A stretch of DNA of 20,518 nucleotides from Magnetococcales bacterium (GTDB taxonomy: Bacteria; Pseudomonadota; Magnetococcia; Magnetococcales; JADFWU01): positions 1 to 20,518 of the forward strand of contig JADFWU010000053.1 of NCBI GenBank assembly GCA_015234045.1, written 5' to 3'. Position 1 is the first letter of the stretch; every line of letters starts with the position of its first letter. The notes beneath the pieces are model-generated. The model had not been told where the DNA came from. It saw nothing but the letters and a program-made list of their open reading frames with translations, and ran no database searches. The translations under genes were made by a program, and so were the position numbers. This document shows, in pieces, positions 1-9,596 of the stretch.

Positions 1-65
1 GTGGGTGATATTTGACACGAGCATTAAGCCAGTTCATGAGATCCTTATCTTGAATTCCCGATTCT
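1..65 (-). repeat. 65-bp exact inverted repeat, copy A (3' end of kdsB)
   Basis: The reverse complement of bases 1-65 is identical to bases 9512-9576, and both copies are read in the same protein frame (residues E230-P250 here, E157-P177 there). Identity stops abruptly at base 65: the next bases are GAGAC before AGAATC here and GAGCT before AGAATC in the other copy. The repeat reaches the window edge, so its true length is unknown. The sequence fits the C-terminus of a Panacea protein better than that of KdsB, so this copy is probably the acquired one. Confidence 0.95.
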
Positions 66-751
66 GTCTCAACCACACGAATCCGGTAACCATTCTCCAA
101 TACACGAAGTTGTTCCAACCGCTCATACTTTTCCAGAGGTGAAGGGGGTAGTTTAGAAAACGTTTGTAAAAACTCTGTTCGATAAACGTATATGCCAACA
201 TGTCTACGCATTGCAGAAGGTATGGTTTGTACGCCGTGTGGCCACTCTGCAAACGCATCCCGGTCAAAGGGAATCGGTGCCCGCGAGAAATAGAGAGCAA
301 AACCTGTTAGATCACAGACCACTTTCACCACATTGGGATCCATCACCTCACGCATAGTGTGGATGGAATGAGCCAATGTACTCATTGGAATTGAGGCATC
401 CTGTCTCAGTGGTGAAACCGCCTCATCAATAACATTAGGCTGAAGGAAAGGCTCGTCTCCTTGGATATTGACCACAATATCCACATCCAACTGGCGGGCT
501 ACTTCCGCTACACGATCTGTACCAGACACATGGTCTGATCTGGTCATCATCACTGAACCATTATGCGCTTTAACAGCGTCATAGATGCGTTGGTCATCGG
601 TGGCCACAACCACATGATCCACATCCGCCTGGGCGGCCTGCTCCAAAACCCGAACGATCATAGGCCTACCACCGATATCTGCCAGTGGTTTTCCAGGTAA
701 ACGGGTAGATGCAAAACGGGCTGGAATGACAACGGCTACTTTATCCACCAT
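1..751 (-). CDS. kdsB: 3-deoxy-manno-octulosonate cytidylyltransferase (CMP-Kdo synthetase), 3'-partial, with an atypical tail
   Basis: KdsB makes CMP-Kdo from Kdo and CTP in the cytoplasm, the activated sugar that joins lipid A to the LPS core. The frame opens at ATG 751-749 and stays open to base 1 (250 codons, no stop). It shows the N-terminal nucleotide-binding motif IPARFASTRLPGKPL (residues 9-23), the ATDD segment, SGTDR (76-80), the metal-site motif NIQGDEP (95-101) and the late KdsB motif LEQLRVLENGYRIRVVET. From residue 230 the protein stops looking like KdsB. The expected VDTPEDL motif, whose Asp (Asp235 in E. coli) is a metal ligand, is absent. Instead there are 21 residues identical to the end of the Panacea-domain protein at 9045-9596. 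AGAGG lies 9 bases before the ATG, and the gene follows the DUF3108 gene by 11 bp. The KdsB identity of residues 1-229 is certain. Whether the tail is real, and whether the enzyme works, is not. Confidence 0.9.
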   Translation of the reverse strand, partial: MVDKVAVVIPARFASTRLPGKPLADIGGRPMIVRVLEQAAQADVDHVVVATDDQRIYDAVKAHNGSVMMTRSDHVSGTDRVAEVARQLDVDIVVNIQGDEPFLQPNVIDEAVSPLRQDASIPMSTLAHSIHTMREVMDPNVVKVVCDLTGFALYFSRAPIPFDRDAFAEWPHGVQTIPSAMRRHVGIYVYRTEFLQTFSKLPPSPLEKYERLEQLRVLENGYRIRVVETESGIQDKDLMNWLNARVKYHP

Positions 752-762
752 ATACTGGGCCT

Positions 763-1647
763 CTATCGATCCTCAACTTCTTCTACGATTTTTCCAGAAC
801 CACCACGGCCATCCTGAAATTCCGTCAAATCAATGGCGACAGCACCAATCTTGACCTGTGCTTCAACCCGCAAGGGTAGACGTCTTTCATCATTGGTCAA
901 CCAAATGATCAATTGTCCCTTCAAACGAAACAGCTTGGAGGTCTTTAACTGAGGGTAAACGGGCATGGCATCAAACCAACCCATAGGCGTATAAATCCGC
1001 TGCGCTTTACCAACACGCACTTCAGCGTTATACCACTTACCACCATCAATTATGGGAACTTTGACTGTTGATTGCGGTTGGAGATTCTTTAGGAGCCGTA
1101 AACCATAGAAGGAAGAGATAGGGTCGTTGACGTTGACCGGAATATCCTTCACCACTCTATTTTTACCGCTTTTCTTTCCGTTTTTCCGCTCGGTAAATAC
1201 CACTTCATTGGTGGTGCGGTCAAATTTTGATTCAGCATATCGGATAAGATCGTCCTCTTTTTGGGATTTTAAATAGTAATCTGAACGCAAGGCATTATCT
1301 ACAATCCGACCTTTGGCTTGCAGACGATCTTTCACTTGAAAAAAGAAATCCACTGCACCGATGGAGTCCAATGTCACATCAATATCGTAACTATCATCAC
1401 TCGGCTGCTTGAATTTCATGATCGAGATACCAGCCGGAAAGCCCATCCAGTGTAAATTAAACACCAACCGTTCGCCATCCACCGGACCAAGACGTGTTTG
1501 TGTGGTTTGCTGTTGATTTTGCAGTTGATCGGTTTGGACAGGTTCAGACGGTATTACTGTTTCTGCCTGTATGGGCAGAACATGCCAGCTGGCAAGCAGT
1601 GTCAACAACATCAACCAACGTCGTTTTCTTTTTCTCGATTGTTTCAT
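763..1647 (-). CDS. DUF3108 domain-containing exported protein
   Basis: The ORF can begin at codon 1713, but the better start is ATG 1647-1645. It is preceded by an AGG-type ribosome site about 6 bases upstream, and translation then begins directly with a signal peptide: basic KQSRKRKRRW, a hydrophobic LMLLTLLASW core and a likely cleavage after IQA. This gives 294 residues. The mature part resembles the DUF3108 family of periplasmic, beta-rich proteins: an early GERLVFNLHWMGFPAG segment, VTLDSIGAVDFFFQVKDR, NDPISSFYGLR, and a C-terminal IIWLTNDERRLPLRVEAQVKIGAV stretch. The molecular role of the family is not known. Its place directly upstream of kdsB and beside heptose genes suggests an envelope job. 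It probably forms a two-gene transcript with kdsB, divergent from gmhB. Family assignment is from memory of these motifs and is moderately sure. Confidence 0.8.
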   Translation of the reverse strand: MKQSRKRKRRWLMLLTLLASWHVLPIQAETVIPSEPVQTDQLQNQQQTTQTRLGPVDGERLVFNLHWMGFPAGISIMKFKQPSDDSYDIDVTLDSIGAVDFFFQVKDRLQAKGRIVDNALRSDYYLKSQKEDDLIRYAESKFDRTTNEVVFTERKNGKKSGKNRVVKDIPVNVNDPISSFYGLRLLKNLQPQSTVKVPIIDGGKWYNAEVRVGKAQRIYTPMGWFDAMPVYPQLKTSKLFRLKGQLIIWLTNDERRLPLRVEAQVKIGAVAIDLTEFQDGRGGSGKIVEEVEDR

Positions 1648-1768
1648 CAAAGACCTGCCTATCTGAAAACCAAATGCTGAAACTATGTTGAAAACGGTGT
1701 TTTCACTCAGCATGGTTTGAAGCTATTGTCATTCTCTCACGCTTCCGCCATAGTGACGGTGTATGCCA

Positions 1769-1797
1769 TTGTAGAGAATTTATGTTGATTATCTAAT
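1769..1797 (+). promoter_or_regulatory. Possible promoter for the gmhB operon
   Basis: In the divergent spacer between the DUF3108 gene and gmhB, TTGTAG (1769-1774) is followed after 17 bases by TCTAAT (1792-1797). The -10 is a 5/6 match, the -35 only 3/6. It lies 18 bases before the gmhB ATG, which leaves a very short leader. The remaining spacer must also hold the promoter for the minus-strand genes, but I see no convincing motif for it. Confidence 0.3.
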
Positions 1798-1815
1798 TGT
1801 GGAAAAGCAATCTTC

Positions 1816-2376
1816 ATGCCGTTGAATAATCGCACGACCTCAACGATCAAAACCATATTATTGGACCGAGATGGTGTACTGAATACCGACCGGTTCGACT
1901 ATGTCTATACACCGGACCAATTGGCACCCATTCCAGAAGCCTTACGCGCTTTACGGCTGCTCAAACAAGCCAGATACCGCATTATTGTGATCACCAATCA
2001 AGCCTGTATCGGTCGCGGTCTGATCACAGAGGATCAACTGACGGCCATTCATCAGCAATTAATCAGTCTGGTTGAAGCGGCTGGCAGTGCCATTGACGAT
2101 ATTTTCTACTGTCCACATCATCCTGACGATGGGTGCAATTGCCGGAAACCGTTACCCGGTCTCATTGACCAAGCCCACAGTAAATGGTCGTTCGAACGGT
2201 CGGAGACCTGGCTGGTTGGTGATTCTCTGCGCGATATCCAAGCAGGTAACCAAGCGGGGTGCAAAACAGCCATGGTGCGTACCGGTCATGGTATGGAACA
2301 CTGCAAGAAAGTGACTGACACGCCGGTCTATGATGATTTGCTGGATTTTGTTCAAAATGCGCTGGGACTCTCCTGA
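1816..2376 (+). CDS. gmhB: D-glycero-beta-D-manno-heptose 1,7-bisphosphate 7-phosphatase
   Basis: GmhB removes the 7-phosphate from heptose 1,7-bisphosphate, the step between the two HldE activities in ADP-heptose synthesis. It is a 186-residue HAD-superfamily protein. Motif I is LLDRDGVLN (about residues 16-24, nucleophile and general acid aspartates), motif II ITNQA (about 59-63), and the later acidic motif is VGDSLRDIQAG. The zinc-binding insertion typical of GmhB is present as CPHHPDDGCNCRKP, with three Cys and a His. Length agrees with the family (about 190). It is the first gene of the plus-strand heptose/lipid A operon and is followed 35 bp later by hldE, the enzyme it cooperates with. 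The related histidinol-phosphatase family shares the fold, but the heptose neighbours settle the choice. Confidence 0.95.
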   Translation: MPLNNRTTSTIKTILLDRDGVLNTDRFDYVYTPDQLAPIPEALRALRLLKQARYRIIVITNQACIGRGLITEDQLTAIHQQLISLVEAAGSAIDDIFYCPHHPDDGCNCRKPLPGLIDQAHSKWSFERSETWLVGDSLRDIQAGNQAGCKTAMVRTGHGMEHCKKVTDTPVYDDLLDFVQNALGLS

Positions 2377-2411
2377 TCCCGGCTACCACTTATTTTTCAG
2401 GAATCTAAACC

Positions 2412-3920
2412 GTGTTTTCCAATATTGACTTGGTCTCAAAATCGCTAAAATCCGCATTTTATGGCCGCACTATCATGGTGATAGGCGATTTAATGTTGGA
2501 TCGCTATTTATGGGGCAGTGTTTCCCGAATTTCTCCTGAAGCACCTGTGCCAGTGGTACGTCTCAAACGGGAAACCGAACAGTGCGGCGGCGCGGCCAAC
2601 GTTGCGTTTAATCTGGTCAATCTTGGTATACAGCCGATTATTGCCGGTGTGGTAGGCCGAGATAGTGAAGGGCGTCGTCTGCAAGGCCTGCTCAATTCGG
2701 CAGATATCGATATTCAAGGCGTGATCACCGTCGATCATATACCAACCATCACTAAAACCCGCATCATCGGCGGTCATCAACAGATGCTGCGCCTGGATCG
2801 TGAGGTCAACTACAGCTTACCGCAGAACCATCACCAAATGTTGATGGATCGCATTCTAACGATCCTCAAAACCGACACACCGGCGGTTATTCTGCTCTCC
2901 GACTACGCCAAAGGGGTTCTGACTCCTACTCTGTGTCAGGAGATCATAGCAACTGCCCGGCGAATGGACATACCGGTATTGGTAGATCCAAAGGGATCAG
3001 CATATCACAAATATCGCGGTGCTTCGGTCCTCTCGCCCAATCGGTCTGAACTGGCTACGGCTGTGCGCCGTCCCGATGAAGAGTTGGCCACGCAATTGAT
3101 GGCTGGCGAGATTCTGCGTGAGAATTTGGAACTGGATTATCTGGTTGTCACACTGAGTGAACTGGGTATTGCGTTGGTAGATGATGCCGGCATTCGGCGC
3201 ATTCCATCAGTGGCTCGGGAAGTGTTTGATGTTTCTGGTGCTGGCGATACGGTTATCAGTACCCTCGCCGCCGGCCTGGCGGCTGGACTGGACCGTATGG
3301 ACGCGCTGGTACTGGCCAACGTCGCTGCGGGTGTGGTGGTGGGAAAACTGGGCACACTGCCCATTACGCGACCGGAATTAAGCCGCGCTGTCAGCAATGA
3401 AAATGCTTTGGGCGAATCGAAAAAAATCTGCAATTGGGAACAAGTGGGCACACTGGTGGATGGTTGGCGCAATCAGGGAGATCGTATTGTGTTTACCAAC
3501 GGCTGTTTTGATCTACTGCATGCTGGTCATGTAAGCTATCTGGAAGCGGCACGCATGCATGGTCATCGACTGGTGGTTGGGCTAAACTCCGATAGCTCGG
3601 TCAAGCGCCTGAAGGGTGAAAGCCGTCCAATCATTCAACAACAGGATCGTGCTCGGGTACTGTCCGCTATTGCCTCTGTCGATGCCGTGGTGATTTTTGA
3701 TCAGGATACACCGTTGGAGCTGATACAGCGCTTGAGGCCGGATGTGCTTGCCAAGGGTGCGGACTACAGTGAAAATGAAGTCGTCGGCGGTGATGTGGTA
3801 AAATCCTGGGGCGGCTCCATTGAACTGATTCCTCTGATTACAGGACGTTCCAGTTCAACAATAGTTGAAAAAATCAATAAAAACGATGCCGAAGAGAGTA
3901 TTGATCCGGTTTCTTCATGA
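2412..3920 (+). CDS. hldE: Bifunctional heptose 7-phosphate kinase / heptose 1-phosphate adenylyltransferase
   Basis: HldE phosphorylates D-glycero-D-manno-heptose 7-phosphate at C1 and, after GmhB, adenylates heptose 1-phosphate. Both domains are visible. The N-terminal ribokinase-like domain (about residues 15-325) has VIGDLMLDRYLWG, RISPEAPVPV, CGGAANVA and the C-terminal kinase signature SGAGDTV (near residue 276, catalytic Asp). The nucleotidyltransferase domain (about 350-490) has FTNGCFDLLHAGH (near residue 360, with the HxGH motif), LNSDSSVKRLKG and LAKGADY. The protein has 502 residues, slightly longer than E. coli HldE (477), mainly from a short N-terminal extension and a C-terminal tail. 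The start is GTG 2412, with AGGA about 8 bases before it. It lies between gmhB and hldD, so three of the core enzymes of ADP-heptose synthesis are together. I do not see gmhA in the window. Confidence 0.97.
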   Translation: MFSNIDLVSKSLKSAFYGRTIMVIGDLMLDRYLWGSVSRISPEAPVPVVRLKRETEQCGGAANVAFNLVNLGIQPIIAGVVGRDSEGRRLQGLLNSADIDIQGVITVDHIPTITKTRIIGGHQQMLRLDREVNYSLPQNHHQMLMDRILTILKTDTPAVILLSDYAKGVLTPTLCQEIIATARRMDIPVLVDPKGSAYHKYRGASVLSPNRSELATAVRRPDEELATQLMAGEILRENLELDYLVVTLSELGIALVDDAGIRRIPSVAREVFDVSGAGDTVISTLAAGLAAGLDRMDALVLANVAAGVVVGKLGTLPITRPELSRAVSNENALGESKKICNWEQVGTLVDGWRNQGDRIVFTNGCFDLLHAGHVSYLEAARMHGHRLVVGLNSDSSVKRLKGESRPIIQQQDRARVLSAIASVDAVVIFDQDTPLELIQRLRPDVLAKGADYSENEVVGGDVVKSWGGSIELIPLITGRSSSTIVEKINKNDAEESIDPVSS

Positions 3921-3988
3921 CATCATCCATGGCATGATTTCGACAACGGGCAACAGCGGTATTCTTAGACAAACGGTTAGGTGATTTG

Positions 3989-4945
3989 ATGGTTATTGTC
4001 ACAGGCGGTGCAGGATTTATCGGCTCAAACCTGATACATGGGCTTAACCAACACGGCGAAACCGATATCCTCGTGGTGGATAATCTCGAAAAAGGTGAAA
4101 AGTTTCTCAATATTCGAGATCTTTCGTTTGCAGATTTCATGGATAAGCAGGAGTTTCGTTCCAAACTGCAATCCGGTCTATTCAAGCACGCCAATGTGCA
4201 AGCCATTTTCCATCAAGGTGCCTGTTCCGATACCATGGAGTATAATGGCCGCTATATGATGGATAATAATTTCACCTATTCCAAAGAGTTACTCCATTTT
4301 TCCATCAGTCATGAAGTACCATTTGTCTATGCATCCAGCGCGGCGGTTTACGGCGATGGTACTCGGTTTTCCGAGATTCCTGAAAACGAAAAACCGTTGA
4401 ATGTCTATGGCTACTCAAAACTGCTGTTTGATCAATATGCCGGTCAGCACTATAAGAATGCTCGCAGCACCGTCGCAGGCCTGCGTTATTTTAATGTCTA
4501 TGGTCCACGAGAAGGCCATAAAGGGCGTATGGCTTCCATGGTGACTCAGTTGCATAATCAACTGGATCAAACTGGTGAGGCAGTTCTGTTTGAAGGGACC
4601 GGCGGCTATGGCAACGGTGAACAGCGGCGTGATTTTCTTCATGTCCATGATGCTGTAAAAGTGAATCTGTTTTTTGCCGATGGCCCACCAAAGCACGGTG
4701 CATTCAATGTTGGCACCGGTGCCAGCCGCTCTTTCAATGATATCGCAAACACATTGATTGGCTTGAAGGGCAAAGGTGAGATCCGCTATAGAGCCATGCC
4801 TGAAGGATTGGCTGAAAAATACCAAAGCTTTACTGAGGCGGATATCAGCAGTTTGAGAGCTGTAGGCTACTTGACACCGTTTTCCTCTCTTGAAGAGGGC
4901 ATCAAAGCCTCTTTTCATCTCTCTGCCAAAACAAAAAAGGCGTGA
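3989..4945 (+). CDS. hldD: ADP-L-glycero-D-manno-heptose 6-epimerase
   Basis: HldD inverts C6 of ADP-D-glycero-D-manno-heptose to give the L,D form used by core heptosyltransferases. It is an extended short-chain dehydrogenase/reductase of 318 residues (E. coli 310). The Rossmann motif is VTGGAGFIGSN (residues 4-14), followed by VVDNL. The epimerase features HQGACSDT, YASSAAVYG and the catalytic YGYSK (Tyr-x3-Lys) are present, with RYFNVYGPRE and DFLHVHDAV further on. A TTG at 3986 also opens the frame, but ATG 3989 has AGGTGA at a normal distance (5-6 bases) and gives the usual MVIVTGGAGF start. It follows hldE by 68 bp. Nothing unusual is seen. Confidence 0.96.
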   Translation: MVIVTGGAGFIGSNLIHGLNQHGETDILVVDNLEKGEKFLNIRDLSFADFMDKQEFRSKLQSGLFKHANVQAIFHQGACSDTMEYNGRYMMDNNFTYSKELLHFSISHEVPFVYASSAAVYGDGTRFSEIPENEKPLNVYGYSKLLFDQYAGQHYKNARSTVAGLRYFNVYGPREGHKGRMASMVTQLHNQLDQTGEAVLFEGTGGYGNGEQRRDFLHVHDAVKVNLFFADGPPKHGAFNVGTGASRSFNDIANTLIGLKGKGEIRYRAMPEGLAEKYQSFTEADISSLRAVGYLTPFSSLEEGIKASFHLSAKTKKA

Positions 4946-5025
4946 GCATGTTGAGGCGGATTTGATACAAAATTCATTCAACCGCGTAATTCCTATCCAT
5001 AAAGAGCCTGTCACGGAAACCAATC

Positions 5026-6039
5026 ATGGCCAGAGATGAATTACGGGCCGGTCACTATCTGGAGTGGATTCTCCTGCGTTGGTTGATCAGCCAGGTCAAC
5101 AAAGGCAGCATGGCGGATGCCTACCGCCGTATCCAACGCCTGACCCGTTATCTTGCCCGACCTATCCTGCGTTCCGAATGGGCTTGGGCCAATGCTAATC
5201 TGCACTTGGTATACGGTGATAATCTGAGCGCACAACAGCGGGATTTTCTTGCCAGACGCGCTTTCGAAAACATCCTGTTCAGCCATGTGGAAGGATTGCG
5301 GGCCTGGGATACCGCATTCGACACCACGCCTGCCCAACCGCTTATAGATGCTACGGCCCTGGGCCGTCCAATGATCATCGCTGCGATCCATATAGGCGCT
5401 TGGGAACCTGGCATGTATCAGATTGGCAAACTCGGTGTGCCGCTAACAGCGGTCTATCGTCATGCCAACAATCCATTGAGCGAACGGGAATTTCAAAAAG
5501 CGCGCGATCAGTATGGTATCGGATTTATCAGACGCAATGAGCCGCGTGCATTTATCAACGTACTGAAACGCAATCAAGCCCTTGGTCTGATGTTGGATAT
5601 CAACGTTAAACGCAATGGGATTACCGCACCATTTCTAGGCGTGGATGCTCAATGCGCGCCGGGCACTGCCCGATTGGCAGCCCGTTTCCAAGCATTGGTG
5701 GTGCCGGTTATGGCCAACCGCAACACACCAGGACACGCCACCCTACGCGCCCTTCCCGCTTTGGAACCACCCGCCAAACGCGCTGATACCGCCACTCTGC
5801 AAGCCTTTACTGCAAAAATAAACGCATCGGTCGCACCCTGGGTGCATGAATATGCCGAACAGTACAACTGGCTGCATTCCCGTTGGCGCAGTCGTTCGGA
5901 TGGCACGCTATGGAAACCAGAAGATGCCCTGGCCCATAAACGACCGCATGCCGAGTATGCTCCCCTTTCAAAACGGGTGGAAAACTTGATTAATCAATCA
6001 GTAAAGAATGAGCCATCCCATCGGAATCAATCGGAATGA
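5026..6039 (+). CDS. Lysophospholipid/lipid A acyltransferase family protein (LpxL/HtrB type)
   Basis: Members of this family add secondary acyl chains to Kdo2-lipid A at the inner membrane. The 337-residue protein carries the catalytic block as AAIHIGAWEPG, with His122 and Glu127 matching the family HxxxxE (usual form HFGNWE). It is followed by the second block VYRHANNPLSE and by MLDINVKRNGITAPFLGVDAQCAPGTARLA, which corresponds to the usual DQ.....G...PFFG.....TGP region. Unlike E. coli LpxL there is no obvious N-terminal membrane anchor: the first 60 residues are amphipathic and basic. The ATG at 5026 lacks a strong ribosome site. The stop overlaps the start of the next gene (ATGA at 6036-6039), which indicates coupling. 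The paralogues lpxL, lpxM and lpxP cannot be separated by eye, so no symbol is given. Confidence 0.88.
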   Translation: MARDELRAGHYLEWILLRWLISQVNKGSMADAYRRIQRLTRYLARPILRSEWAWANANLHLVYGDNLSAQQRDFLARRAFENILFSHVEGLRAWDTAFDTTPAQPLIDATALGRPMIIAAIHIGAWEPGMYQIGKLGVPLTAVYRHANNPLSEREFQKARDQYGIGFIRRNEPRAFINVLKRNQALGLMLDINVKRNGITAPFLGVDAQCAPGTARLAARFQALVVPVMANRNTPGHATLRALPALEPPAKRADTATLQAFTAKINASVAPWVHEYAEQYNWLHSRWRSRSDGTLWKPEDALAHKRPHAEYAPLSKRVENLINQSVKNEPSHRNQSE

Positions 6040-7520
6040 AAACACCCTCTCAACGCTCTGCCTGGTTGATTCTATTCGGCTTGATGGCGTGCCAAACCCT
6101 GTTTTGGACCCTGATTCCCTCTTTAACCCATATCAGCATGCCGTTGGATGTCGTTGAAGGATTGGCTTGGGGGCATGAATGGCAATGGGGCTACTATAAA
6201 CATCCACCCCTGCCTTCCTGGTTGCTGGAAGCCAGTTTTACCGCTTTAGGCGATGTTGGCCCCTTTTTATTAAGCCAGTTGACCATCTCACTGGCCTATT
6301 TTTTTGTTTTTCTATTGGCTAAAGAGATCTATGACACTCGGCGGGCGTTGATCGGTACTGCATTACTCACTGGTGTTTATTATTTCTCGCTACCAACGCC
6401 AGAGTACAACCACAACATCGCCCAAATTCCTCTTTGGGCGGCAGGTATTTTCTTTTTCTATAAAGCCCTTCAAACCCGCGCTTTACTGTGGTGGTTCTGC
6501 TTGGGCACAGCACTGGGATTGGGCCTACTGACCAAATACTCTGTCCTGGTGCTTATGGCGGTAATCGGGCTTTACCTTCTGCTATCAAAGCAACACCGAA
6601 ACATGCTACTCAGCTTTGGCCCCTATCTGGCTTTGGCGATAACACTATTGGTCATCACACCGCATATTCAGTGGCTCATCGACCATGATTTCCTACCCTT
6701 TCGCTATGTAGAAAAACGCGCTGGTATGGCCATGGTTCTATGGTTGCGTCCAATCGCCAGTATTAAATTTCTGTCGGCTCAATTGGCTGACCATCTCCCC
6801 ATGCTGATTATACTGGTCACTGCTGGCCTGTATAGAAAATCCTCTATTTCAAGCAGAAACAGCACCCTTTCCCAAACAGACCGGCGTTTTTTACTGGCAT
6901 TTGGACTCGGGCCGGTTTTACTGGTCTCTTTGGTGCCCTTATTCACCGGAATGGGCCTACGCAGCATGTGGGGCACGCCACTGTTTACACTGTCTGGCTT
7001 ACTGATAGTCTCTCTACTGCCGGTGGATCAGGAAAACGTTAAAATCAAACGCTTCACCTATGCAGTCATCGCCTTACTGGTCACTATGCCAATGGCCTAT
7101 GGTGCAAAAGCGCTCTACGGCTGGAAAATCGCCAAAAAAGCCAACCGTCTGGAGTGGCCTGATCAAGAGATCACCCAACGCATGATGTATAACTGGAATT
7201 CGAACAATAAAAACTGCCCATTGAAAATTGTCGGCGGCTCCGACTGGCTGGGCGGTATGATCAGCTTACGCGCAGAAAAGCGCCCAAGCCTGTTATTCGA
7301 TGGGAATTTTGAGATTTCACCGTGGATTACACCCGAACAGGTACAACAACACGGTGCCTTGCTGGTGTGGAAGGTGAAAAACGATCAGCCATCTATTCCA
7401 GAGGCTTTCAAAGCACTGCCTGGATTTGCCCTGGGCGGTATGGAGTCCTTCAACTGGCCTCGGGCTGGCACCAAGTTTGCGCCGTTGACCCTTGGTTGGG
7501 GAATGGTGCCTTGTGGATGA
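6036..7520 (+). CDS. Glycosyltransferase family 39 (ArnT/PMT-like) integral membrane protein
   Basis: GT39 enzymes move a sugar from a polyprenyl-phosphate donor to an acceptor on the periplasmic side of the inner membrane; ArnT, which modifies lipid A, is the best-known bacterial example. The 494-residue protein has an N-terminal hydrophobic segment (LILFGLMACQTLFWTLIP), then a loop DVVEGLAWGHEWQWGYYKHPPLPSWLL. That loop matches the family pattern of an acidic residue followed by K.PPL.PWL. After it come about ten hydrophobic segments and a soluble C-terminal domain from about residue 380. It is translationally coupled to the acyltransferase (4-bp overlap), which supports a role in lipid A or core modification. 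Its donor could be made by the GT2 enzyme at 9619-10596. The specific sugar and acceptor cannot be read from sequence. It is the last host gene before the AT-rich segment. Confidence 0.85.
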   Translation: MKTPSQRSAWLILFGLMACQTLFWTLIPSLTHISMPLDVVEGLAWGHEWQWGYYKHPPLPSWLLEASFTALGDVGPFLLSQLTISLAYFFVFLLAKEIYDTRRALIGTALLTGVYYFSLPTPEYNHNIAQIPLWAAGIFFFYKALQTRALLWWFCLGTALGLGLLTKYSVLVLMAVIGLYLLLSKQHRNMLLSFGPYLALAITLLVITPHIQWLIDHDFLPFRYVEKRAGMAMVLWLRPIASIKFLSAQLADHLPMLIILVTAGLYRKSSISSRNSTLSQTDRRFLLAFGLGPVLLVSLVPLFTGMGLRSMWGTPLFTLSGLLIVSLLPVDQENVKIKRFTYAVIALLVTMPMAYGAKALYGWKIAKKANRLEWPDQEITQRMMYNWNSNNKNCPLKIVGGSDWLGGMISLRAEKRPSLLFDGNFEISPWITPEQVQQHGALLVWKVKNDQPSIPEAFKALPGFALGGMESFNWPRAGTKFAPLTLGWGMVPCG

Positions 7521-7586
7521 AATATTATTCACCCTTTCGCCATCTCGGAATAGAGATAAACAACCACTGTTACTGTGGGTTCAGAG

Positions 7587-7703
7587 ATGATTGCCAAAGT
7601 GAAGTATGGCAATATTGGCCATTTAGATCGTCTCAAAATCAGTTCGGGAGTTCCGATAGATGAATATTTAATTTTACGAAAAGAAGCACCAGTTTTCGAT
7701 TGA
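7587..7703 (+). CDS. Short ORF, unknown, possibly a gene remnant
   Basis: ATG 7587 opens 38 codons (MIAKVKYGNIGHLDRL at the start, LRKEAPVFD at the end) before TGA. No ribosome-binding site of usual form precedes it. The peptide is mixed, not low-complexity, so it could be a fragment of a decayed gene. I do not recognise it. It may be a chance ORF. Confidence 0.2.
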   Translation: MIAKVKYGNIGHLDRLKISSGVPIDEYLILRKEAPVFD

Positions 7704-7972
7704 TTTCAATGAACGCACACATCAAATGATTATGAAATTTATTGAAACCATGAGTCAAAAAAACAACACTAAATACAGTTAAATTGCAATAAGTTTCTAC
7801 TGGATATTATCAAGGAAGTATTATTTAACAATATGGCCCTGGCTGGTCTTACACCCCTGACAACTGATTTATTTTATGCAATAATTAGCTGTTTAGTGTA
7901 GACACATTCTGAAGTACCCGCCTCAAATCAATCTACAAAATTCCGGCAAGAATGAATCATGGCATGCTTGTT

Positions 7973-7994
7973 GCTGACAAACCATATTGACAGC
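7973..7994. promoter_or_regulatory. Inverted repeat upstream of the cyclase gene, possible operator
   Basis: GCTGACAA (7973-7980) and TTGACAGC (7987-7994) are inverted copies with one mismatch, separated by six bases. The right arm contains a perfect -35 hexamer (TTGACA), but no acceptable -10 lies 15-19 bases downstream. The repeat is 80 bases before the chosen cyclase start, a reasonable place for autoregulation of a two-gene module. The evidence is position and symmetry only. Confidence 0.3.
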
Positions 7995-8073
7995 AAGATG
8001 CTTGATGTGTGGTGATGCGAGATTTTTCTTCTCACTCATCATAATATTGGATTTTTACTGGAAAGATTCTTTA

Positions 8074-9024
8074 ATGGCTTCTGATAAAGACGATATAAAA
8101 GATAGTAAAGATAAAGAAGAAACAGATCAAAATCAGCATGGAACAAATAAAAGCGATCCTGCGGATACTAATGAAGAACCACAAAAATCAGCTGACCCAA
8201 TTGAACAGCTGACTGCCCGAGAAAAACTAGAGTATCTAAATAACCATATTTACACTGGTTTTCTTGTATTATTTGATATTAAGGACTCTACAAGTCGCAA
8301 GCATGCCTATAAACGTCGATGGATTTTACAAACATCTGCATTTTATGAAAGTTTTGCAAAATTCATTAAAGAATTGAAGGTTAAAATACAGATACCTTGG
8401 GATGAACCTGTTGTTAAACTTGCTGGTGATGGATGTATGTTATTTATACCGCACCTTCCTAGCCGAGATGAAAAGCAAGATCTAAACATAAAAAATCATT
8501 CCCCTCGAACAATTCTGCGAGAAGTGATGACTTTCAGACAGATCATTCACGATGACACTGAATTGTCTGGTTTACGCCTCAAGATTGTTATTACCTATTT
8601 GACCAATATCCATCGAGTTAAGGTTAACGACACAAACGATGTATTAGGTAGAGGCATCGACTTCAGTTTCAGGCTTGAGCGATTTGCTGACTCCACCCAC
8701 TTAGTTGTGAATAAGTATTTTATTGATGTCTTGCGTGATAAAGGACGACCTAACGAGATCAGCTTGAGCAAGTTAGAGAAAAAGATTTTAAAACATGTCA
8801 TTCCATGCAGAAAACGCATGAAGGGTTGGGCTAGCCTTGAGGGCGAGTCTTTTTATTTGATAACAGAACCCGATGATATTGAAAACTTTCTGGATGCAAA
8901 ACCGTCACCTGAACGCGGAGATGTTCACACCGAGTTGATGGCTCATTTCATAAAGCATCATAGGAAGAAACAAACTGCTAACTCTACGGATCCGATTAAT
9001 ATTGATATTTCTGCAACGCCCTAA
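8074..9024 (+). CDS. Class III nucleotidyl cyclase homologue, candidate toxin or signal synthase
   Basis: The 316-residue protein has an acidic, low-complexity N-terminus (residues 4-41) followed by a region resembling the class III adenylyl/guanylyl cyclase catalytic domain (about 58-225). LVLFDIKDST matches the first metal site (Asp68; usual form FADI..FT). VVKLAGDGCMLF matches the second (Lys115 and Asp119; usual K..GD...F). GRGIDFSFRLERF matches the G..VN.A.R.E motif, keeping the Arg (200) but with Asp196 where the family has the catalytic Asn. No receptor, HAMP or PAS domain is present. The frame also opens at TTG 7987 and ATG 8005; those would add a short hydrophobic run (FFFSLIIIL). 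ATG 8074 was chosen because GGAAAG precedes it. The gene is AT-rich and followed after 20 bp by a Panacea-domain gene. It could be a Pycsar-like cyclase, or a toxin neutralised by its neighbour. The fold call is fairly firm; the product is unknown. Confidence 0.72.
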   Translation: MASDKDDIKDSKDKEETDQNQHGTNKSDPADTNEEPQKSADPIEQLTAREKLEYLNNHIYTGFLVLFDIKDSTSRKHAYKRRWILQTSAFYESFAKFIKELKVKIQIPWDEPVVKLAGDGCMLFIPHLPSRDEKQDLNIKNHSPRTILREVMTFRQIIHDDTELSGLRLKIVITYLTNIHRVKVNDTNDVLGRGIDFSFRLERFADSTHLVVNKYFIDVLRDKGRPNEISLSKLEKKILKHVIPCRKRMKGWASLEGESFYLITEPDDIENFLDAKPSPERGDVHTELMAHFIKHHRKKQTANSTDPINIDISATP

Positions 9025-9044
9025 CACTTTTGAGGACTTGATCC

Positions 9045-9596
9045 ATGCCAGAATCAAAACCTTCCCGGAATCCAAAAGAGAATCTGACCCTATTGATTGC
9101 CATGTTGATCGAGAAGCGTCAGGTAAACCGCACATCTCTAAACAAACAGTTGTTTTTCTGTGACTTGTTGCATTTCCAGAATTTCAAGAAATCCCTATCT
9201 CGTGCTTCATACCGCAAGCTTGACTTTGGACCTGTTCCAGATAATATCAGTGAAGTTAGAGAATTTATGATCCAATCAGATCTGATAACAGAAAACATGG
9301 TAGCGAATGGCCCTTATTATGAGTACTTATACGAGGCTAATAGTGACAAGATTGACTATAAGAAGGCGGAAAAGCTACTCGGAGAAAAAGAATCAAGATT
9401 AGTCCGTGCTGTTGCATCAGGACTTTCCGATATTTCTGCATCCGAGCTTTCCCGAATAACACATGAGCATGAACCTTGGAAAAGTGGACAATGGTTCGAG
9501 GAGCTTGAGCTAGAATCGGGAATTCAAGATAAGGATCTCATGAACTGGCTTAATGCTCGTGTCAAATATCACCCACATGAAACTCAATTGAATTGA
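9045..9596 (+). CDS. Panacea-domain (DUF4065, SocA/GepA-like) protein, candidate antitoxin
   Basis: Panacea domains occur in many two-gene toxin-antitoxin loci, where one antitoxin fold is paired with unrelated toxins. This 183-residue protein shows the family pattern: an N-terminal helix LTLLIAMLIEK, then LNKQLFFCDLLHF (32-44; usual form L.KLLYF.D), then the GP motif YRKLDFGPVPDNI (56-68). The C-terminal LSRITHEHEPWKSG (135-148) corresponds to the usual L...TH...PWK. The final helix (IQDKDLMNWL) fits the common C-terminal I.....M..YY pattern. GAGGA lies 8 bases before the ATG. The gene starts 20 bp after the cyclase homologue and shares its AT-rich composition, so they are probably co-transcribed and co-inherited. 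Its last 27 residues include the segment duplicated in kdsB. It ends 22 bp before the convergent GT2 gene. Confidence 0.8.
   Translation: MPESKPSRNPKENLTLLIAMLIEKRQVNRTSLNKQLFFCDLLHFQNFKKSLSRASYRKLDFGPVPDNISEVREFMIQSDLITENMVANGPYYEYLYEANSDKIDYKKAEKLLGEKESRLVRAVASGLSDISASELSRITHEHEPWKSGQWFEELELESGIQDKDLMNWLNARVKYHPHETQLN
9512..9576 (+). repeat. 65-bp exact inverted repeat, copy B (3' end of the Panacea gene)
   Basis: This copy is identical to the reverse complement of bases 1-65 and encodes residues E157-P177 of the Panacea protein. It is probably the native copy, because it continues naturally from the Panacea domain into its last helix and stop. The two copies face each other across about 9.4 kb, so recombination between them would invert everything from kdsB to the cyclase. 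Confidence 0.95.

Follow-up and report, generated by a model that had tools for sequence, protein, structure and literature searches.

The kdsB-Panacea junction at the left end of a Magnetococcales contig: very probably a contig-end artefact

The reading frame of kdsB at the left end of contig C66 runs directly into sequence of a Panacea gene that lies on the same contig. We confirmed this observation and conclude that the junction very probably arose as a contig-end artefact. It is highly likely that this end is a technical inverted chimera, with phi29 MDA as its most likely source, and that the true end of kdsB is unassembled and not fused to another gene. The evidence comes from the repeat itself, from the conserved C-terminus that the assembled kdsB lacks, and from other contig ends of the same assembly.

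The repeat at the contig end and the truncated kdsB

The window, by which we mean the whole stretch of DNA analysed, is the entire contig C66 (20,518 bases), so that base 1 is the contig end. The source assembly is a draft of 117 contigs and 3.65 Mb, 93% complete. Comparison of the window with itself bore out the exact repeat of the preliminary description: bases 1-65 and 9512-9576 are exact reverse complements of each other, and the repeat does reach base 1. If 2 mismatches are allowed, the inverted match spans 72 bases (1-72 and 9505-9576, 97% identity), and the exact pair is the sole repeat of at least 20 bases detected in the window. An exact match of 65 bases is far beyond chance, while the shared reading frame, with a prior of 1/3, carries little weight. 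A query of 800 bases from the contig end matched the whole genome at just these two sites, and the terminal 30-mer was present at the same two sites only in the sequence examined. The exact 64-base tail sequence had no match in the other genome contigs searched.

On the minus strand the kdsB frame stays open from base 751 as far as the contig end, where it terminates in ...RVVET-ESGIQDKDLMNWLNARVKYHP. Translation confirmed that the final 21 residues, those after RVVET, are residues of the Panacea protein. The authentic portion of the gene (66-751, minus strand, about 229 residues) lacks its 3' end. Its nucleotidyltransferase domain scored above the curated cut-offs of the KdsB (CMP-Kdo synthetase) family models (TIGR00466, 253.6 bits; NF003952, 303.7 bits), and the model matches end at residues 224-232. 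The likely origin of the terminal 65 bases is 9512-9576 on the plus strand, within an intact and uninterrupted gene of 183 aa for a Panacea (SocA-like) domain protein (9045-9596, plus strand), which matches Pfam PF13274 over the whole profile with 59.4 bits.

The preliminary description also held that the C-terminal motif segment of KdsB is missing. The comparison with homologues that it proposed agrees with this: in all 13 kdsB genes from the same order that could be read to their ends, the tail contains GVD with T, A or S as the next residue, and this segment is absent from the frame as assembled. Relatives align to the query no further than residue 239. The missing aspartate is one that we take to be metal-binding. 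Mg-A is bound by conserved active-site aspartates of KdsB (PMC3149649). The GVD segment would be absent here because the contig ends in a chimera and the authentic sequence goes no further than the join.

We then looked for the rest of the gene. The search for a second, intact kdsB that had also been proposed was run across the assembly and found none, other matches reaching at most 34.8 bits. One degenerate pattern for the missing tail had no match in the assembly sequence searched, and another had two (C29 at 72 kb and C35 at 31.6 kb), neither of them contig-terminal; the motif itself was not found at the contig ends examined. Contig C5 offers a probable neighbour. In the relative L016, pyrG directly follows kdsB, and on C5 pyrG lies about 70 bases from the right contig end, in an orientation that puts kdsB just beyond the end and kdsA downstream. 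This kdsA is intact, scoring over the cut-off without stops. The bases of C5 upstream of pyrG encode no recognisable KdsB tail. With the gene order of L016, kdsB would come next at this end of C5, which makes a small gap there probable, and C66 and C5 probably adjoin across a short unassembled gap that holds the kdsB tail. The adjacency is drawn from this one relative, and the genes downstream of kdsB differ in others. We infer that the authentic kdsB is intact in the organism.

The gene that lies directly before the Panacea gene (8074-9021, plus strand) has no Pfam or NCBIfam match. It carries motifs resembling those of class III nucleotidyl cyclases (FDIKDST, GDG and GRGIDFSFRLE), and on these motifs its product may be cyclase-like; a single-sequence fold had a mean pLDDT of 34, too poor to use. 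Both genes are adjacent and in the same order in one of the 40 relatives searched (G022 C268, L028; 36-38% identity), because of which the pair has the look of a mobile module of two genes, with a possible toxin-antitoxin or signalling role.

Inverted single-copy pieces at other contig ends

We surveyed about 2.03 Mb of the assembly, covering 192 of the 234 contig ends, for exact inverted pairs of at least 40 bases within 10 kb on the same contig. Just five were found, four of them flush with a contig end. Besides C66 (65 bases, 9.5 kb apart), these are at the start of C36 (L123; 45 bases, 0.8 kb apart), the end of C109 (L107; 52 bases, 2.3 kb apart) and the start of C114 (L143; 77 bases, 3.9 kb apart). 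By our own arithmetic, four flush arms under random placement of 192 ends in 2.03 Mb have a chance of about 1e-14. All four pieces are at most 77 bases long, have abrupt homology edges and occur just twice in the sequence examined. An ungapped self-search of the contig ends without the 10-kb limit added just imperfect inverted matches (C70, C93 and C31).

The remaining exact pair, 52 bases long and the only non-terminal one, is on C49 (L134; 11006-11057 and 11353-11404) and could represent either a natural hairpin or a chimera within the contig. Direct pairs numbered 60, and the contig-terminal ones lie on tandem arrays (C34, C67 and C105), a multi-copy repeat (C26) or a diverged repeat (C72). 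C72 had been considered as a further inverted case and was rejected, as its repeat is direct and diverged with homology that continues. A dispersed short repeat with the 30-mer ATATCAAAAGCGGCGCAAAAACATCACCAG was seen at about 29 places in the contigs examined, several of them contig ends; examples are C26 at 54161 and 62382, C63 at 10514 and C67 at 5583.

Many contig ends share an overlap of exactly 77 bases with other contigs, from which we infer a de Bruijn assembler with k = 77. The inverted pieces resemble such overlaps in not exceeding 77 bases. They differ from ordinary repeat-induced breaks in that three of the four (45, 52 and 65 bases) are shorter than 77 bases and therefore, as genuine repeats, would have been incapable of breaking the assembly. 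That no piece exceeds 77 bases is as expected, because the graph would have absorbed a longer tail at its proper location.

Immediately beyond the exact match, and separated from it by one or two mismatches, a further matching run of 5 bases was found at C66 and of 6 bases at both C114 and C109, and no microhomology beyond the join was found at C36. Among random pairs, 0.76% would be expected to show a run of at least 5 within 12 bases (P 0.0076 each). At C66 the junction zone (66-72, minus strand) consists of two mismatches followed by a run common to kdsB and the Panacea gene, which reads TTGAG in the kdsB sense; the full microhomology there may be longer.

Origin of the chimeric end

phi29 MDA is known to produce chimeras when a 3' end, once displaced, anneals again to another displaced strand close by and extension follows (Lasken and Stockwell 2007, PMC1855051). 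Among 475 such chimeras 406 were inverted, 337 of these with segments less than 10 kb apart, and complementary bases were present at the junction in 93.5% of the near inverted ones (PMC1855051). The overlaps are mostly 5-8 nt, with a peak at 6 nt (PMC4595205). The four contig ends share the inverted join, the distance below 10 kb (0.8-9.5 kb) and recurrence across the genome, and three of the four have short junction complementarity; they differ from the published cases in being known from assembly contig ends alone and not from reads. It thus appears that the DNA was amplified by MDA. Against this origin stand C36, which lacks microhomology, and the absence of the kdsB tail from the assembly sequence searched.

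At C66, a strand ending in kdsB would have been displaced during copying before sequencing. Its 3' end could then have annealed, through TTGAG and a few neighbouring complementary bases, to nearby single-stranded DNA of the Panacea gene about 9.5 kb away, and have been extended on that strand in the inverted orientation. With the native sequence past about residue 229 of kdsB unassembled, the assembler would have capped the contig with the chimeric tail, which at 65 bases is shorter than the k-mer of 77, so that the graph was unable to merge it into its true place. The preliminary description had weighed an artefact against recombination with the accessory module, and the artefact is strongly supported by three other contigs, which likewise end in inverted single-copy pieces that do not exceed the apparent k. 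Its version of the artefact, an assembly that joins two places at a shared segment, has to be amended in one respect: the 65-base repeat is the product of the chimeric join and not a segment shared beforehand at which the assembler joined them. All that was shared beforehand at C66 is a short microhomology consisting of TTGAG and perhaps some adjacent bases.

The main rival is a technical chimera with a different origin (library ligation, library fold-back or assembler error), which would make the same join without MDA. Any process yielding near-range inverted chimeric reads would give the same contig-terminal pattern, but fragments in a short-read library are shorter than the 0.8-9.5 kb seen here, and MDA fits the orientation, the range and the microhomology; we consider this rival unlikely. 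A real rearrangement is more improbable still; this would be either an inversion, carried by all cells or only some, of the DNA that separates kdsB from the Panacea gene, or a fusion of a truncated kdsB to a copied piece of the Panacea gene. Inversion of bases from about 66 to 9511 would yield exactly the observed junction, and the frame stays open across it. However, the Panacea locus is intact and uninverted on the same contig, the window holds, besides the terminal piece, no inverted repeat to drive such an inversion, three unrelated contigs have the same kind of end, and kdsB would have lost its conserved GVD segment while kdsA is kept. The recombination or fusion that the preliminary description had considered is not supported. 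A site-specific invertible switch was likewise rejected, as there is no other inverted repeat in the window; neither flanking inverted repeats nor a junction peculiar to this locus was found. It is very improbable that some cells of the population carry a real inversion between kdsB and the Panacea gene by which KdsB alternates between its native tail and Panacea-gene sequence. The least credible reading is that KdsB natively ends in this tail in the lineage concerned, the likeness to the Panacea gene dating from an old duplication. In its favour, the set searched contains no other genome of the family and thus no close relative for comparison; yet an old duplication would not retain 100% DNA identity with an abrupt edge, and relatives in the same order retain GVD tails.

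Consequences for annotation

Under the favoured explanation, an inverted chimera added at the contig end, bases 1 to about 72 of C66 are to be trimmed or flagged and kdsB is to be annotated as partial at the contig edge. The genes at the start of C36, the end of C109 and the start of C114 are suspect in the same way. For draft genomes in general, the case provides a simple check: if the terminus of a contig repeats single-copy sequence from inside that contig in inverted orientation, over a length that does not exceed the assembly k-mer, it should be trimmed, and no gene fusion or truncation located there is to be believed until this has been done. In this organism, the correction averts a false claim that an LPS gene has been disrupted by an accessory module.
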